Shown here piece by piece: positions 43,038-63,572 of a stretch of 64,000 nt of DNA; position 1 is the first letter of the stretch, and every line of letters starts with the position of its first letter. The position numbers and the translations under genes were made by a program. The notes under the pieces are model-generated. The model had not been told where the DNA came from. It did not search any database and saw nothing but the letters and a program-made list of their open reading frames with translations. This stretch comes from Thermocoleostomius sinensis A174 (GTDB lineage Bacteria; Cyanobacteriota; Cyanobacteriia; Elainellales; Elainellaceae): assembly GCF_026802175.1 (NCBI RefSeq), contig NZ_CP113797.1:3325026-3389025 (forward strand), written 5' to 3'.

Positions 43038-43292
43038 TTATATCAACGGTGTAGACCAACATCGTTCTAACCAACTCACTAATTCCTGACGAGAAGCCGT
43101 GAACTGTTGAACAATACTGCGAACTAAAATTAACTCAGTGCTATCATTGATTTCTACTCGCAAAGAACCATCAATCGGACAAGAACAAGAAATCATAAGT
43201 TCTTGCAAACGATAGTAAATTCGCCAGCGATCGCATCGGGGAATGGCGATGATATGTTCTACGGGAAGGTTAAGATTAAGAGACGGTTGCAT
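43038..43292 (-). CDS. Small nif-associated protein
   Basis: 84 residues: MQPSLNLNLPVEHIIAIPRC, then DRWRIYYRLQELMISCSCPIDGSLRVEIND and VRSIVQQFTASRQELVSWLERCW. An Asr1405/Asr1406-like small protein sits in the same place after nifP in heterocystous cyanobacteria; I recall the position, not an experimental role. Four cysteines (R-C-D, S-C-S-C and R-C-W) could bind a metal. Starts inside the end of nifP (17-bp overlap), so translation is coupled. Confidence 0.75.
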   Translation of the reverse strand: MQPSLNLNLPVEHIIAIPRCDRWRIYYRLQELMISCSCPIDGSLRVEINDSTELILVRSIVQQFTASRQELVSWLERCWSTPLI

Positions 43293-44031
43293 TGATGGGG
43301 TTCCTGGAGAATTCTAGAGATTGTTGTTTTAAGGCTTGTACTTGTTGTTCAAGCTGTTCAATTCGATGCACTATCCTATGTAAGGCAGTTGCATCTGGAT
43401 CGGGCAATTGATTGTGCTCTAAACAATGGGTTTGTGATTTGGTAGAATCCTGCGGATTGGTTTGACAAAGGTTACGTCCGGGGACACCAACGGCTGTACA
43501 ATAGGCAGGAACATCTCGCAGCACGATTGATCCGGCTCCAATCCGGGCGTAGCTGCCGATGTGAATATTGCCAAGCACCTTTGCGCCGGCACCAATTATG
43601 ACATGGTTGCCAACGGTTGGATGGCGTTTGCCACTTTCTTTGCCTGTACCACCCAGCGTGACTCCTTGATAAATAAGGGTATAATCTCCAACGATCGCCG
43701 TCTCACCAATCACAACCCCTATACCGTGATCAATCACGATTCCTTTACCTAAAACGGCGGCTGGATGAATCTCAATTCCAGTAAATAATCGTGCTAGATG
43801 AGATATTAAGCGCGGAAAAAAGAAAACATTATGAAGATGCAGCCAATGAGCAAAACGATAGCAGAGGATGGCATGTAATCCCGGATAGCAGCATACAGCT
43901 TCTAACCAGTTTCGGGTGGCTGGATCGCGCTCAAAAATCATTTGAAAATCTTCAAACAGTGGAATCGCTGTCAATCTTTGTTGAAGCAATAAAATTGATT
44001 GGGTGAGAAGACGATCGCAAAACTGTAGCAT
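43276..44031 (-). CDS. nifP: Serine O-acetyltransferase, nif-linked
   Basis: Makes O-acetylserine for cysteine synthesis, raising sulfur supply for Fe-S clusters. 251 residues from ATG 44031 (frame extends to 44106). Family signs: FEDFQMIFERDPATRNWLEA at the N-terminus, RFAHWLHLHNVFFFPRLISH, then the left-handed beta-helix GKGIVIDHGIGVVIGETAIV, GVTLGGTGKESGKRHPTVG, and IGAGSIVLRDVP. C-terminal extension with a coiled coil (RIEQLEQQVQALKQQS). CysE paralogs at the head of this operon are called nifP. It is the first gene of the leftward nif operon. Confidence 0.93.
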   Translation of the reverse strand: MLQFCDRLLTQSILLLQQRLTAIPLFEDFQMIFERDPATRNWLEAVCCYPGLHAILCYRFAHWLHLHNVFFFPRLISHLARLFTGIEIHPAAVLGKGIVIDHGIGVVIGETAIVGDYTLIYQGVTLGGTGKESGKRHPTVGNHVIIGAGAKVLGNIHIGSYARIGAGSIVLRDVPAYCTAVGVPGRNLCQTNPQDSTKSQTHCLEHNQLPDPDATALHRIVHRIEQLEQQVQALKQQSLEFSRNPINATVS

Positions 44032-44549
44032 TGCTATTTCGGATGAAGAACACGTTGTGTCTTCTGTATAGCAGATGCTGTTTAGCTGCAAGCTTAGGAA
44101 TAGCAATTGAATTTATTAGAGTATTAGCTTTGCACTCAGCGCTTACAATACTGTTGCCATGGCTTTTTACAAATTATTTAGGGATAGGGGAACTAGAATT
44201 TTAGAACCCAGGGATTAGTATTTACAGTAAAGGGGACTTGCAATCTTACACTCAAGCTAAATCTGCCTAGCGCAGGTATTTCAAGAAATTTGAAAGTGCC
44301 TCTAGTATCGCTGCGATTTGCACTCAATGTTGTACTTGATCATTTCCATACGAGTCATGATCGAACTAGATTGTGTGTCTCAATTGAGCATCTTGAGTTT
44401 TGGGATTGCACAACGTTTCTGTCATTTATACTACCAACTAATTAATTTGATTAACTATTAAATTTAGCTAAAAGTATCCAAAGTTTCAAAAAAGTTGATA
44501 AGAATGCTAATTTAGATACAGAAACAATACTAGAGCAATTAACTAACTG

Positions 44550-44590
44550 CTTGATTCAACCATTGAAGATGGTTTGAGTACTCAATCAAG
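44550..44590. repeat. Nested inverted repeat with palindrome TTGAGTACTCAA
   Basis: CTTGATT-CAACCAT, TGAAG loop, then ATGGTTTG-AGTACTC-AATCAAG. The outer (CTTGATT/AATCAAG) and inner (CAACCAT/ATGGTTTG) arms pair, leaving the right-hand AGTACTC as a bulge. The right half includes the perfect 12-bp palindrome TTGAGTACTCAA (44574-44585). A dimeric regulator site is the simplest reading. Confidence 0.55.
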
Positions 44591-44767
44591 CTCACACTAA
44601 ACTAATTTAAAAATGTCTGCAAGACCTTGCTGGTTCTGAGAACTGGCTGAGTGCAAAAAACAAGCCTCTCACCCCATAAATACTCATACCTGCTTCTAGA
44701 AATACTCAGTCCCCTACCCAAAAAAATACTTTAATGCAGATGATAAGGGGAATACAGCGGTTGAGTA
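44575..44767. promoter_or_regulatory. Cluster of TGAGTA/TACTCA hexamers upstream of nifB
   Basis: TGAGTA at 44575-44580 and 44762-44767; TACTCA at 44579-44584, 44681-44686 and 44703-44708. Five occurrences of one hexamer (both strands) in 193 bp is well above chance for a 6-mer. One further TACTCA occurs at 61723-61728 upstream of cnfR. They may be sites of a nif regulator; not proven. Confidence 0.45.
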
Positions 44768-44967
44768 CCTTCCTAATAATTCAATAATTCTGAGCAGCCA
44801 TCGTAGAGTAGTTCCTCAGCAAACGGCTGATATAACCCTATTAACGCCAGCCATTCAATCTTCCAACTGAGAACGTCTAATTATTCTCATCTCGGAGTTT
44901 AGGTAAGTGGAGTAATGCAGTAGCGTTTCCACAGTGGCGGATTGTTCACCTAATTCCTTAAAATTCG

Positions 44968-46407
44968 ATGACATCACCCACTACTCTCCTAGCTTCAGCG
45001 ACTGAACATATATCAGAGCATCGAGCCAACACGAGTAAAAGCAGCTGTGGATGTAGTTCTAGTCAAGCAGTAGACAATCTTGATGCGAACATACGGGCGC
45101 GGATTGAAAAACACCCCTGCTATAGCGAAGAAGCTCATCACCACTATGCTCGGATGCACGTTGCTGTGGCTCCCGCTTGCAACATTCAGTGTAACTACTG
45201 TAACCGCAAATTTGACTGTGCCAACGAAAGCCGTCCAGGTGTAGTAAGTGAGTTGCTCACACCTGAAGAAGCGGCACATAAAGTATTGGTCATTGCTGGA
45301 AAAATTCCACAAATGACAGTATTGGGTATTGCTGGTCCGGGTGATCCATTGGCAAATCCAGAGAAAACGTTTGAAACCTTCGAGCGAATTGCTGAGCAAG
45401 CACCAGATATTAAACTTTGCCTGTCTACAAACGGGCTGATGCTGCCAGATTATGTCGATCGGATTAAACAACTCAATATTGATCATGTCACTATTACAAT
45501 CAACATGATTGATCCAGAAATTGGGACAAAAATCTATCCTTGGGTGCACTATAGACGAAAACGATATAAAGGACTAGAAGCTGCCAGAATTTTACATGAG
45601 CGGCAAATGGAAGGATTGCAAGCATTGAAGGAGTCCGATATTCTTTGCAAAGTTAATTCAGTGATGATCCCTGGCATCAACGACGAACATTTAGTAGAAG
45701 TTAATCGAATGATTCGTGAAAAGGGCGCATTTCTACACAACATCATGCCCCTAATTTCAGCGCCAGAGCACGGCACCTATTTCGGTTTAACTGGACAGCG
45801 TGGTCCTACTCCCAAAGAGCTTAAATCAATTCAAGACAACTGCTCTGGTTATATGAAGATGATGCGCCATTGCCGACAGTGCCGTGCTGATGCAGTGGGG
45901 CTTTTAGGCGAAGATCGTAGCCAGGAATTTACAAAAGACAAGTTCATGGAAATGATTCCACAATACGATCGTGAATTACGGCAGGAAATTCATGCAACTA
46001 TTGAGAAAACCAAAGCAGCAATTCAGTTAGCGAAAGCTCAGAGCAAGCCTAGTCAACAGGTAGAAAACAGTCCCAAAGTTTTAGTGGCCGTAGCAACTAA
46101 AGGAGGGGGAATGGTGAACCAACATTTTGGTCACGCTAAAGAATTCCAAATCTTTGAGGTGGATGCGAACGAAGCAAAATTTGTAGGACATCGCAAGATT
46201 GATCAATACTGTCAAGGTGGTTATGGCGAGGATGCCACACTAGAGTATGTGATTCAAGCAATTGCAGACTGTAAAGCTATTCTCGTATCTAAGGTAGGAG
46301 AATGCCCTAAAGCTGAACTGAGGGAAGCCGGATTACAGGTAGTAGAAGCCTACGATGTAATTGAAACAGTAGCGAGAGCATTCTACAACCAATACATACA
46401 ACAATAG
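44968..46407 (+). CDS. nifB: NifB, radical-SAM FeMo-cofactor core synthase
   Basis: Builds the 8Fe-9S-C NifB-co precursor. 479 residues. Radical-SAM motif C71-x3-C75-x2-C78 in [17 protein letters not shown], preceded by [20 protein letters not shown]. Further blocks: [39 protein letters not shown], and the [17 protein letters not shown] cluster-binding region. The C-terminal 110 residues ([20 protein letters not shown] onward) are a NifX-like carrier domain, the usual NifB fusion. First gene of the rightward operon; the regulatory region above lies directly upstream. Confidence 0.97.
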
Positions 46408-53965: not shown

Positions 53966-56698
53966 ATGAAAATGACCCAAGGCAAAGTTAAAGAACTACT
54001 GGCTGAACCCGGTTGTGAACATAATCAACATAAACACGGTGACAAGAAAAATAAGACTTGTACTCAACAAGCTCAGCCTGGTGCTGCCCAAGGAGGTTGT
54101 GCCTTTGACGGAGCCATGATTGCACTTGTTCCAATTACTGATGTGGCTCATATTGTGCACGGACCAATTGCCTGTGCAGGAAATTCCTGGGGCAGCCGAG
54201 GCAGCCTTTCTTCTGGTTCGATGCTTTACAAAATGGGCTTCACCACAGATTTAACTGAGAATGATGTGATCTTTGGTGGCGAAAAGCAACTGCATAAATC
54301 TATTTTGGAAGTACATCAGCAATATCAACCAGCCGCTATTTTTGTCTACTCTACTTGCGTCACCGCATTAATTGGAGATGATTTGGACGCTGTTTGCCAA
54401 AAAGCAGCCGAACAAACTGGCACTCCTGTCATTCCTGTCAATTCTCCTGGCTTCATTGGCAGCAAAAATCTGGGGAATCGAGTTGGGGGTGAAGCTCTAC
54501 TAGAGTATGTAATTGGTACAGCAGAGCCAGAATATACCACTCCTTATGACATTAATCTGATTGGAGAATACAATATTGCTGGCGAATTATGGAACGTATT
54601 GCCCCTGTTTGAAAAGGTGGGAATTCGAGTTCTATCTAAAATTACAGGAGATGCTCGTTATCACGAGGTTGCCTGTGCACATCGGGCTAAGCTCAATGTC
54701 ATGATTTGTTCCAAGGCACTGATCAATATGGCTCGCAAGATGGAAGAACGCTATGGTATTCCTTACATTGAAGAGTCATTCTACGGTGTTGAAGATATGA
54801 ATCGCTGCTTGCGGAATGTTGCCTTAAAGTTAGGTGACGCTGCTCTCCAACAGCGTGTTGAACGCCTGATTACTGAGGAAGTGAACCAACTTAATGATGT
54901 GCTAGTGCCCTATCGCGATCGATTACAAGGAAAACGAGTTGTTCTATATACCGGAGGTGTAAAAAGTTGGTCAATTATTTCAGCAGCAAAAGATTTAGGA
55001 ATGCAAGTTGTTGCAACTAGCACCAAAAAAAGCACTGAAGAAGACAAAGCCAGAATTAGGGAATTGCTTGGTCAAGATGGATTAATGTTGGAAAAAGGCA
55101 ACGCCCAAGAACTACTGCAAGTCATTGCTCAAACCCAAGCAGATATGTTAATTGCAGGAGGAAGAAATCAGTACACAGCCTTGAAAGCTCGAATTCCATT
55201 CCTTGACATTAACCAAGAACGCCATCACTCCTATGCAGGGTACGCAGGTATGGTAGAAATAGCCAAAGAGCTAGAAGAGTCCCTTTATAGTCCTATTTGG
55301 CAGCAGGTGCGGCAGATGGCGCCTTGGGAAATGCAGCAGATAGGGAAAAATGAAGATAGGAAAATGCCTTGTAATAATTCGATTGCTCAAGTTGTCACCT
55401 CTAAAAAGGTAATTGCTGTTAATCCTCTCAAACAAAGCCAGCCTCTGGGTGCTGCACTGGCTTTTTTGGGACTCAAGGGCATGATGCCATTGTTTCACGG
55501 TTCGCAAGGATGTACAGCCTTTGCCAAAGTCATGCTTGTGCGACATTTCCGGGAAGCAATTCCGCTCTCTACAACTGCTATGACAGAGGTTAGCACGATC
55601 TTGGGAGGAGAAGAAAATGTAGAGCAGGCGATTCTTACCATTGTGGAGAAATTTCAGCCGGAAATCATTGGGCTTTGTACCACCGGACTCACTGAAACTC
55701 GTGGAGATGACATGGAAGGGATACTACGCAACTTTCGCAAGAAGCATCCTCAACTTCATCATCTACCGATTGTTTTGGTTTCTACAGCTGATTTTAAGGG
55801 AGCACTTCAGGATGGTTTTGCTGCCGCCGTTGAAGGACTAGTTAAAGAATTACCACAACTAGATGATGCTAAACCAGATCAAATTACGGTTTTAGCAGGT
55901 TCACTATTATCTCCTGGGGATGTCCAGGAATTGAAAGAAATCATTGCTAACTTCGGATTGACACCAATCATTATTCCAGATTTATCAGATTCTTTAGACG
56001 GTCACCTAGAAGATTCTTACAGTGCTGTCACTACTGGAGGCACAACTGTCACAGAGTTGCAGGAGATTGGGCGATCTGTCTACACTTTTGCGATCGGCGA
56101 AAGTATGCGAGAAGCTGCTGATATTTTAGAACGACGATTTGGAATCCCTTATGAAGTCTTTCCTCAATTAACCGGATTAACGGCTGTCGATCAATTTCTG
56201 CAAGCCCTCGCTGATTTAAGTGGAGTAGACATACCTGAACGCTATCGCCATCAACGTCGTCAGCTTCAGGATGCGATGCTTGACACTCATTTTTACTTTG
56301 GTCGGAAGCGAATTGCTTTGGCTCTCGAACCCGATTTGCTATACACCATTGCGGGATGGTTGAAGGTAATGGGAGCCGAAATTCAGGTGGCTGTTACAAC
56401 AACGAGATCTCCCTTATTGGAGCAAATACCAATTGAAACAGTGGTGATTGGTGATCTAGGCGATTTTGAACAATTAGCCGTTGGCTCCGACTTGATTATT
56501 ACCAATTCCAATGGAGCAGCGATCGCCCAGCGTCTCAATATTCCTCTGTATCGACTAGGTTTTCCAATCTTCGATCGGCTCGGCAATGGACAACGATGCA
56601 CAATTGGTTATCGCGGAACAATGCAACTGTTATTTGATATTGGCAATCTGTTCTTGGAAGAACAGGAGAAGATGCTCCGTGCAGATAGAGCGAAATAG
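53966..56698 (+). CDS. nifEN: Fused NifE-NifN FeMo-cofactor scaffold
   Basis: Single 910-residue protein. NifE occupies about 1-455: [71 protein letters not shown], ending at [16 protein letters not shown]...QMAPWE. A linker of about 20 residues (with Met456 and Met467, the latter a possible relic of a nifN start at 55364) joins Nif[53 protein letters not shown]. No stop or frameshift separates them. The two subunits normally form an alpha2-beta2 scaffold that matures NifB-co to FeMo-co. ATG 53966, with TAGGACTTGAG upstream. Confidence 0.95.
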
Positions 56699-61623: not shown

Positions 61624-61955
61624 ACGTTGTGTAGTTCCGGTAATAGCTTGGACAATTTCCCTGATGTGTCGCCTTTCCAGCCTTTGATTTATTGAAGGCT
61701 GGTTTTTTATTAAGAAAATTCATACTCAATAACGCTTTGGTTAAGAAAATTAAGAAAATATTGTTTCGCTCAATCCGAACAAAAAAGGATCTGGGTCTTC
61801 GTTAAGACTGTGACTAGTTAAGGTTATCAGCATGTTTCTAAAGCTAGATTGGTAGCTCTAAGTTTATAAAATTGACTCCTTAAAACAAGAACGATTGTCC
61901 GCAAAAGCTAGCAAAGAGTAGATGTTACTAGGATCAACTCAAGGTTGAGCAAGCT
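61624..61955. promoter_or_regulatory. cnfR upstream region
   Basis: 332 nt without a gene. It contains the terminator of the methyltransferase (61677-61708), then A/T-rich DNA with TACTCA at 61723-61728, matching the hexamers upstream of nifB. AAGGTTGAGC precedes cnfR. The separate terminator implies that cnfR has its own promoter here. Confidence 0.55.
61677..61708 (+). terminator. Rho-independent terminator after methyltransferase
   Basis: CCAGCCTT (61677-61684), 10-nt loop, AAGGCTGG (61695-61702), then TTTTTT (61703-61708). A perfect 8-bp G/C-rich stem and T-run, 53 nt after the stop codon. Confidence 0.88.
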
Positions 61956-63572
61956 ATGCCATACGCCATCACTAATCGCTGTATTCAATGTGATACATGT
62001 CTTCCGCTGTGCCCAACAGGGGCGATCGCTGTGATGGATGATCGTGAGTTTTGGATTAATCCAACTCTCTGTAATAATTGCGACGGTTACTATTCTCAAC
62101 CACAGTGTGCTCTGGTTTGTCCAGTTGATTCTCCGATCCCATTCCAAGCAAAGAAAGGCAGATGCAAAGTCAACGAACAAATCGCTACAAGCCCCGATCT
62201 ATTTGCCAATGGAAAAACTAACGTTTTTGCCTCTGCTATTGTTGTGTGGGAACTCTGTAACATTTTGGCGCAACGCCGATCGCTTCCCTGGCAAGTCGAT
62301 GCAAAGGGGCAGTTGTATTACCAGCGTCAAGTTAATCAAGGACGTGGTTTAGTTACCTTTCATGTAACGGATGCGCTTGATTCTCCTCATCCTCCTCTGT
62401 TAAGAGCTACCGATGCCTTGGCCACGATCGATACCTTTGATATTCGCGCTGCTTGTCTACATCTAATTTATGCGGCCTACGCTTCCTCATTAGAGAGACC
62501 GTGGGAGCAAGAATTTGTGATTAACGATCGCCAAATCGAAGAATATTTAGGGTTGGACAAACGAAAAGATTTGAGCAAAACAGCCAAGCTTGCTTTGATC
62601 AAAACCCTAGTACAACAGCCCTGCAACCTCACAGTGAGTCTAGACTGGAATCAGCAGGGAAAAGTAAAAGGATTTTCTTCAGATGCCACGCATTTATGGC
62701 ATTTGCTCAATATTCAACATCACTTTCAACCGGATCAGCGGGGATATAAGCACCTGACTGGTCTCACATTTAGACTGAAGGCAGGAATCTGGGCGAGTTA
62801 TTTTTTGAATCGAACTGGTTATAAAACTCATACAGCCTTTTATCAATATGGAACCTTACCAAAATCGCTCTTGACAACAGTAATGAGTATTTGGCAACAA
62901 CACGAAGGAGCAGCCAGAATCTTATTGTGGCTATTATTTAAGACTAAGATGGGACACGAACAACGCCTAACTATTCCTACTCTGATGCGAATTGCCTATG
63001 GTGAACCCAAATTAACTCAAGTGTCTTCCCAGGTAGAAGGGCGAAAGCGACTACTCCGTACCTTTGAAAGTGATTTGGAAGTACTCAATGAGTATGGCAT
63101 TAAGCCAGTCTTTGATCCCGTTACTTATCCAACTGAGATTCAACCGCTGTGGGCTAAACTTGCGGAACTGCCGGACGATGCGGAAGCGGCATTGGAGTTT
63201 TGGACCAAGGATGGCAGCAGTGACTGTCGGTTAACGGATGCGGCTCCCAGAGGCAAATGGAATCGAGTCATCAATGCGCGTCTGCTCCATTTTCAACTAC
63301 CCAATGATTGGCAGAAACCCATCTCTAAGAAACCGAAAACGAAACATCATCGACAATCTCATCAGCAAGTACCGTTTGCTTCGCATTCCACCCTTTCTGG
63401 GCAACAAATTCTTGCAGCGCGACAGAAGCTTCAGCTTAGCCAACGGGCACTGGCCCTTCGGATAGGGAAAAGTCAAAGCTGGGTGCGAGATGTAGAACGG
63501 GGACGATTTCGACCCGCTTCACAAGACCAAGCGCTTTTGCGCCAAGTTTTGATGATTGAAACGCTAGACTGA
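61956..63572 (+). CDS. cnfR: CnfR/PatB-type nif activator with ferredoxin and HTH domains
   Basis: Oxygen-sensing transcriptional activator of nif genes (CnfR in Leptolyngbya, PatB in Anabaena). 538 residues. The N-terminus is a ferredoxin domain with CIQCDTCLPLCPTGAI and CNNCDGYYSQPQCALVCPVD, expected to bind oxygen-labile [4Fe-4S] clusters. The middle ~350 residues have no named fold. The C-terminus carries an XRE-type helix-turn-helix (about 479-530, ILAARQKLQLSQRALALRIG and KSQSWVRDVERGRF) after a basic linker. Ends overlapping the convergent MFS gene by 9 bp. Confidence 0.93.
   Translation: MPYAITNRCIQCDTCLPLCPTGAIAVMDDREFWINPTLCNNCDGYYSQPQCALVCPVDSPIPFQAKKGRCKVNEQIATSPDLFANGKTNVFASAIVVWELCNILAQRRSLPWQVDAKGQLYYQRQVNQGRGLVTFHVTDALDSPHPPLLRATDALATIDTFDIRAACLHLIYAAYASSLERPWEQEFVINDRQIEEYLGLDKRKDLSKTAKLALIKTLVQQPCNLTVSLDWNQQGKVKGFSSDATHLWHLLNIQHHFQPDQRGYKHLTGLTFRLKAGIWASYFLNRTGYKTHTAFYQYGTLPKSLLTTVMSIWQQHEGAARILLWLLFKTKMGHEQRLTIPTLMRIAYGEPKLTQVSSQVEGRKRLLRTFESDLEVLNEYGIKPVFDPVTYPTEIQPLWAKLAELPDDAEAALEFWTKDGSSDCRLTDAAPRGKWNRVINARLLHFQLPNDWQKPISKKPKTKHHRQSHQQVPFASHSTLSGQQILAARQKLQLSQRALALRIGKSQSWVRDVERGRFRPASQDQALLRQVLMIETLD

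Follow-up and report, generated by a model that had tools for sequence, protein, structure and literature searches.

The TGAGTA hexamers between nifB and nifP of Thermocoleostomius sinensis A174 are probably parts of two divergent CnfR-type nif promoters

The stretch of DNA analysed here (the window) comprises 64,000 nucleotides of Thermocoleostomius sinensis A174 (assembly GCF_026802175.1, contig NZ_CP113797.1, positions 3,325,026–3,389,025, forward strand); whole-genome searches covered 5,809,202 bp. Its nifB (plus strand) and nifP (minus strand) genes are divergent; past nifP lie dpsA, nifV and nifZ, and past nifB lie a class-V aminotransferase gene (nifS by its place), nifH and a fused nifEN gene. 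In the latter, nifE and nifN form a single 910-aa open reading frame (53966–56698; NCBIfam NF011047). The cnfR gene is named by architecture and place: its product has an N-terminal ferredoxin-like 4Fe-4S domain and a C-terminal XRE-type helix-turn-helix, and was not matched by a CnfR-named model. A search of the 64-kb window with Rfam gave zero matches at gathering scores, and the NtcA-type GTAN8TAC sites in the nifB–nifP and cnfR upstream regions are one-mismatch sites only. The features of the locus are listed in Table 1.

Table 1. Genes, promoter parts and TGAGTA copies in the window (R1 is the promoter model described in the text)
Feature	Position	Strand	Basis or remark
nifP, serine acetyltransferase (ORF as listed)	43276–44106	-	TIGR01172, E 4e-72; nifP by place
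Putative extended -10 TGCTATACA, nifP	44065–44073	-	Sequence
nifP composite element	44104–44225	-	R1 60.7 bits, E 6.0e-16 genome-wide
Proximal TGAGTG, nifP	44133–44138	-	63 bp after start of second repeat
Two AAATACT-type repeats, nifP	44189–44223	-	AAATACTAATCCC from 44223, AAATTCTAGTTCC from 44201; 22 bp apart
Middle TGAGTG, nifP	44249–44254	-	116 bp upstream of proximal copy
Distal TGAGTG, nifP	44321–44326	-	188 bp upstream of proximal copy
Distal TGAGTA, nifB	44575–44580	+	Within palindrome 44574–44585; 187 bp upstream of proximal copy
TGAGTA	44579–44584	-	Reverse reading of the palindromic distal copy
Middle TGAGTG, nifB	44648–44653	+	114 bp upstream of proximal copy; overlooked in the earlier note
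nifB composite CnfR-type (putative) promoter element	44675–44795	+	R1 62 bits, E 2.3e-16 genome-wide
First AAATACT-type repeat AAATACTCATACC, nifB	44678–44690	+	22 bp before second repeat; holds TGAGTA 44681–44686 (-)
Second AAATACT-type repeat AAATACTCAGTCC, nifB	44700–44712	+	62 bp before proximal TGAGTA; holds TGAGTA 44703–44708 (-)
Proximal TGAGTAC, nifB	44762–44768	+	TGAGTA at 44762–44767; start to TATAAC box 69 bp
Conserved AT-rich box TAATAATTCAATAA, nifB	44774–44787	+	Alignment conservation
Putative extended -10 TGATATAAC, nifB	44828–44836	+	Conserved in alignments
nifB	44968–46407	+	NCBIfam TIGR01290, E 3.1e-205
Isolated TGAGTA before cnfR	61723–61728	-	228–233 bp upstream; judged chance
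cnfR	61956–63572	+	Pfam: Fer4-type matches, residues 8–58; HTH_3, residues 486–520

The earlier note on this DNA had drawn attention to six copies of TGAGTA, and all of them are present: five at 44575–44767, upstream of nifB, and one before cnfR. Two of the five overlap, as it said, to make the palindrome TTGAGTACTCAA, which occurs nowhere else in the genome. The genome-wide count that it proposed does not single the word out: TGAGTA occurs 2114 times (1082 + 1032 on the two strands) and the same word read backwards 2550 times (1279 + 1271), so TGAGTA is not enriched genome-wide. At the genome rate 0.07 copies would be expected in the 193 bp that hold the five observed, which gives a Poisson P of 1.3e-8, or of 9.6e-7 if the palindrome is taken once and four places are counted; these values are generous because the whole window is rich in TGAGTA, but the five-copy cluster before nifB is real and far above chance. 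The window as a whole contains 43 copies, where shuffles give a mean of 25.26 and the genome rate predicts 23.3, and most of this excess lies outside the nif promoters.

The five hexamers before nifB are not five copies of one thing. The two plus-strand copies, at 44575 and 44762, together with a TGAGTG at 44648, make up three same-strand TGAGTR copies for nifB, whereas the minus-strand copies at 44681 and 44703 fall within AAATACT-type repeats and are these repeats read on the opposite strand; in the TACTCA of both repeats the final A differs from the usual base. The proximal nifB copy reads TGAGTACC in the window, where TGAGTACA is usual. The nifP promoter has a corresponding array of its own, built from TGAGTG and overlooked in the earlier note. 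Both window promoters have an AT-rich box and, 68–69 bp downstream of where the proximal copy begins, the first base of a putative TATA box; guessed transcription starts near 44843 (nifB) and near 44058 (nifP) would place the proximal copies 75 and 74 bp upstream, respectively. Given the latter guess, ATG 44031 (251 aa) is a likelier nifP translation start than TTG 44106. At 44031–44106, the nifP open reading frame as listed begins upstream of its own putative promoter.

The locus set used for comparison contained 53 cyanobacterial nifB loci and the window, 54 sequences in all (1.27 Mb), with 27 non-cyanobacterial nifB loci as controls; counts across relatives given here and below are counts of related sequences, not of independent events. 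TGAGTA is often found in these 54 sequences as three regularly spaced plus-strand copies whose flanks align. A first profile was built from 22 nifB promoters, without the window and without any nifP promoter (the 22 came from 23 loci picked among the 53, L012 being dropped by the pattern used, and the L002 row took the distal copy as its anchor by mistake). This profile finds the window nifB promoter (44669–44861, E 1.8e-19) and, with no nifP in its training, the window nifP promoter (44236–44068, minus strand, E 1.4e-15), and it finds nothing at E ≤ 0.5 in the 27 non-cyanobacterial loci. The earlier note's expectation of conservation in related nif promoters is borne out by the plus-strand element, which is present in 51 of the 53 cyanobacterial nifB loci (in L044 it sits about 2.5 kb before nifB); the two others are L043, which has only 52 bp of upstream sequence, and L054, which gave no match. 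Every one of the 20 cyanobacterial loci in which NifP is matched also carries a minus-strand element, as do four more loci that lack such a match.

A simple three-copy rule, TGAGTR with partners 110–132 and 183–205 bp upstream, applied to both strands, gave 57 matches in 42 of the 54 cyanobacterial sequences, every one of them (57/57) inside a promoter element, and none either in a reversed-sequence control or in the 27 non-cyanobacterial nifB loci. The full TGAGTR triplet is missing in the other 12 sequences, in some of them because of CGAGT variants. The consensus of 51 elements consists of ATAAATACTnGTACCC, a second repeat AAATACTnGTACCCCTACCC, an A-rich stretch, and then TTTGAGTACA and TTAATnAATCCAATAAATTCTATC; the two repeats are spaced 22 bp apart in 48 of the 51 and 23 bp apart in three, and a TATA box follows the TGAGTR start by 68–72 bp in 69 of the 70 places that match a TGnTA pattern, the start sites themselves being guesses. 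The hexamer taken by the earlier note as a possible binding motif is thus part of a conserved nif promoter element, but the hexamer itself is not the unit. Only 3 of 52 nifB-side sequences (the window, L024 and L045) have a palindromic distal copy, so the palindrome is not the general operator. We also considered the palindrome as a shared bidirectional site, the distal copy for nifB and the proximal copy for nifP, and rejected it: nifP has its own full array closer by, and the minus-strand element turns up in 20 NifP-bearing loci, the palindrome in those 3 of 52 sequences.

These 51 elements, chosen from 65 usable ones with the window excluded (the 14 omitted were mostly near kin of retained rows), were used to build model R1, and a second model, R2, was trained on relatives' sites in front of genes other than nifB and nifP (below). 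Searches of the A174 genome scored 150 first-look candidates for each model, out of 824 for R1 and 1097 for R2. R1 locates nifB at 62.0 bits and nifP at 60.7 bits, and the sole other place at E ≤ 10 scores 12.3 bits; R2 finds the same two promoters with 41.2 and 31.6 bits, respectively, and its next match also scores 12.3 bits. Among the candidates scored, then, no further such promoter in the genome exceeds 12.3 bits. R2 is not fully independent of R1, since its training sites were located with R1.

The distance from the second repeat to the proximal TGAGTA falls into two classes: it is 61–65 bp in 23 of the 51 elements, 71–75 bp in 28, and 66–70 bp in none. With distances of 62 bp (nifB) and 63 bp (nifP), both window promoters belong to the short class. 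Seven loci carry one promoter of each class, the long form being at nifB in six of them and the arrangement reversed in L034, which suggests more than one change. In triplet-bearing sequences the upstream partners of the proximal TGAGTR lie at 114–120 or 124–129 bp and at 186–192 or 196–203 bp, so the distal copies show two classes of the same type, less cleanly: copy 1-to-3 distances of 206, 207 and 210 bp also occur, and L015, L017, L018 and L044 (minus strand) combine a copy 2-to-3 distance of 119–120 bp with a copy 1-to-3 distance of 202–203 bp. The classes differ by about one helical turn, as would be expected if the boxes must share a helix face.

From these comparisons we infer that the hexamers belong to a divergent pair of complete CnfR-type nif promoters, those of nifB and nifP, and we put the probability of this reading at roughly 80%. 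The earlier note held that the region must contain CnfR targets; a conserved nif promoter element does lie where CnfR sites are expected, but that CnfR touches it here is our deduction from the sequence comparison. CnfR activates both nifB and nifP in Leptolyngbya boryana, whose nifB promoter carries motifs I–IX for CnfR recognition (PMC5943405); upstream of nifB there are three conserved elements, presumed to be CnfR sites, and loss of the first or the second causes a drop of about 50% in nifB1 transcription (PMC8510180); and a TGAGTATA motif is conserved in three places upstream of nifB1 and nifB2 (PMC4284476). In the mechanism that we propose, CnfR would at low oxygen occupy the repeats and the TGAGTR copies on one helix face through its C-terminal DNA-binding domain and, bound to the element, would activate RNA polymerase; the distal TGAGTR copies would boost output, as reported for Anabaena nifB1, nifB and nifP would be induced together, and cnfR would lie outside the targets of this element.

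Among the A174 genome and 59 relatives, an R1 site at E ≤ 1e-6 is present in every one of the 24 genomes that carry a long CnfR match (assigned by reading the match list; in G006 a contig end truncates the match) and in 2 of the 36 without one, namely G038, in which no CnfR was found, and G044, which has a partial CnfR. At the looser E ≤ 0.01, sites also appear in G005, G019, G026, G034, G051 and G057. This co-occurrence is confounded by the presence of the nif genes. Another nif-specific DNA-binding protein might instead read the element, with CnfR acting indirectly or as its partner: the TGAGTR and AAATACTnGTACC motif types differ, so two proteins are possible, activation of Anabaena nifB2 by CnfR1 also requires NtcA (PMC8510180), and R1 sites occur in G038 and G044, which lack a long CnfR match. 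The 24/24 against 2/36 distribution nonetheless favours CnfR, as do the motifs I–IX given for CnfR recognition and the fact that the CnfR activation system functions in Synechocystis 6803 (PMC5943405), and we regard a different reader as unlikely.

The earlier note also suggested that the hexamer before cnfR could be a shared element through which cnfR is regulated, possibly by its own product, and in its strongest form this idea would make TGAGTA or the palindrome alone the CnfR operator, with the 61723 copy autoregulating cnfR. There is indeed one hexamer 228–233 bp before cnfR, and the best R1 match near cnfR spans it (61686–61762, minus strand), but at 7.4 bits and E 0.27 this match is at noise level, one of 36 equally weak window matches with E up to 10, and R2 has no match over 61723 in the window. 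One copy in the 332 bp before cnfR, where 0.12 are expected, has P = 0.11; within 600 bp upstream of cnfR, TGAGTA occurs in 6 of 22 relatives against 6.68 expected from shuffles, and it is absent there from the closest relative, L083, whose CnfR is 78% identical. Aligning the DNA upstream of five cnfR genes showed no conserved TGAGTA, and the 61723 copy lies about 15 bp beyond a hairpin that by eye resembles a terminator. When 24 cnfR loci were searched up to 1.5 kb either side, eight had an R2 site at E ≤ 1e-4, six of these upstream of cnfR and facing away and two past its 3' end, and none of the 24 had a site facing cnfR. Among the genes behind these sites are ParB-like ones (L089 by Pfam; L086, L092 and L094 by resemblance) and one for cytochrome oxidase (cox) subunit II (L084, by Pfam). 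Together with the 2114 hexamers in the genome, fewer than in the reversed control, and the palindrome's rarity in the nifB-side sequences (above), these results make the hexamer-operator idea very improbable, and autoregulation of cnfR through this element is not supported. Chance clustering in AT-rich intergenic DNA, for which only the overall hexamer richness of the window (43 against 25) speaks, can practically be set aside, given that the parts keep the same register at nifB and nifP promoters across cyanobacteria with controls at zero, and that models trained without the window still match both promoters.

Two further observations concern CnfR itself. Four relatives (G011:C46, G022:C82, G032:C163 and G042:C3) have two long cnfR matches no more than a few kb apart, one of those in G032 having an internal TGA. 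In L165, L166 and L172 (genomes G001, G010 and G019) a CnfR paralogue that lacks the ferredoxin part, matching from about residue 65 onwards, lies within a few kb of an element-like site that ends in a GATCATTCTAATGATC-type box; behind the L165 site is a TOTE-type primase and DnaB-like helicase gene (Pfam), and behind the L166 site is a look-alike.

Weaker R1 sites in relatives precede other genes, several of them related to nitrogen fixation. We retrieved 29 regions with 30 such sites, a subset of all; many gene names in relatives rest on resemblance of the start of the open reading frame, and those supported by Pfam are so marked. By Pfam, the genes behind these sites include a nifJ-type pyruvate oxidoreductase (L147, R1 E 3.9e-5), a hupS-hupL-type hydrogenase (L169, E 4.5e-4), a solute-binding protein and, after it, a molybdate-type permease, the substrate being presumed (L167, E 1.2e-3; L168 is a look-alike site with E 2e-5), a luciferase-like gene with an ArsC-like gene next to it downstream (L144), a cupin (L153), a nitroreductase (L150), an OmpW protein (L157) and an HSDR_N protein (L155); by resemblance, nifP (L149, L161) and nifB (L170) are also among them. 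Six of the 20 proteins scanned (first or second genes; L145, L146, L148, L151, L152 and L158, with two proteins from some of these loci) had no Pfam match at E ≤ 0.001.

Nineteen of the 30 extra sites align as a form with one repeat, and R2 was trained on these; the nifJ (L147), hupS (L169) and one transporter (L167) sites were left out of the training, and the 62–63 bp spacing of the training set is partly a product of selection, because the sites were picked for mutual likeness. R2 matches at E ≤ 0.001 occur in 61 of 194 genomes of the class, although searches across more than 40 genomes used stricter filters by which weak sites are lost. Twenty further R2 sites hand-picked from the 194-genome search precede nifB (4), nifP (1), nifJ (1, by Pfam), ArsC-like genes (2, L220 by Pfam), NifX-like genes (5), genes for a conserved uncharacterised protein (5) or another uncharacterised protein (1), or nothing clear (1). 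Of the NifX-like five, L216 alone has a Pfam hit, to Nitro_FeMo-Co (E 3.6e-4, below the cut-off), L223 has no match, and the others are named by resemblance. The conserved uncharacterised protein is small, has no Pfam match (L213 scanned) and lies behind R2 sites in L209, L210, L213, L218 and L222, and in the first four of these a second small protein comes after it; these small conserved proteins are candidate nitrogen-fixation genes.

These sites would fit a model in which CnfR reads a helix-phased two-part operator, a AAATACTnGTACC box and a TGAGTACAnnnTTAAT box 62–63 bp (or one turn more) apart, and single-repeat or otherwise shortened versions of it bring further genes under low-oxygen command in many cyanobacteria; we think this could equally well prove right or wrong. 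If it is right, CnfR rules a wider diazotrophy regulon beyond the nif cluster, and its further targets would be nifJ, the molybdate-type transporter, cytochrome oxidase, the uptake hydrogenase, ArsC-like, NifX-like, cupin and ParB-like genes and several uncharacterised families. A wide regulon is disfavoured for L. boryana because its CnfR-activated nif genes are all confined to the cluster's central 20 kb (PMC5943405). Elsewhere, several extra sites precede genes without an evident link to nitrogen fixation, and the hydrogenase and transporter cases are single weak R1 matches, which makes the model less probable. In the A174 genome R2 found no one-repeat site among the 150 of 1097 candidates scored, and neither PF01558 (pyruvate:ferredoxin oxidoreductase) nor PF00374 (NiFe hydrogenase large subunit) has a match there. 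No published report of such a wider CnfR regulon was found in the literature searched, which for the most part did not extend to subscription papers.

With the help of CnfR and its nifB and nifP promoters, nitrogen-fixation genes of cyanobacteria have been transferred to a host that does not fix nitrogen (PMC5943405). A precise operator map, with its parts and spacings, could direct promoter design and mutation tests, and the weaker sites in relatives form a testable list of more CnfR targets in electron supply, metal uptake and oxygen removal.

How do the two promoters compare with those already known? The nine-motif CnfR cis-element of L. boryana nifB/nifP, reportedly described by Tsujimoto, Kamiya and Fujita in 2016, is said to be 76 bp upstream of the start site, and the 75 and 74 bp between the proximal TGAGTRC copies of the window and their guessed starts fit that value. 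The two systems are also alike in their divergent nifB–nifP region, with CnfR-dependent activation of both genes in L. boryana, and the window element is likely the same as motifs I–IX, with which it was compared by their descriptions. A difference lies in the two spacing classes, which are absent from the accessible part of the text on the L. boryana element. In Anabaena variabilis the nifB1 and nifB2 promoters have TGAGTATA-type motifs in three conserved copies, another conserved motif and an extended -10 (PMC4284476, PMC8510180). In the window, likewise, three TGAGTA-type copies stand upstream of nifB at the relatives' spacing, and the element is found at both nifB and nifP; the two conserved AAATACT-type repeats may correspond to the second motif, and the extended -10 is putative. 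In contrast to A. variabilis, the window has TGAGTG as its middle nifB copy and throughout the nifP array, the distal nifB copy is palindromic, and the distance from repeat to TGAGTA is of the short class (62–63 bp). The element is thus largely published, as the three-copy TGAGTATA motif and as the CnfR-recognised element upstream of nifB; what goes beyond the accessible published text is the two-class spacing, the full TGAGTG array at nifP in A174 and the possible wider regulon in relatives.
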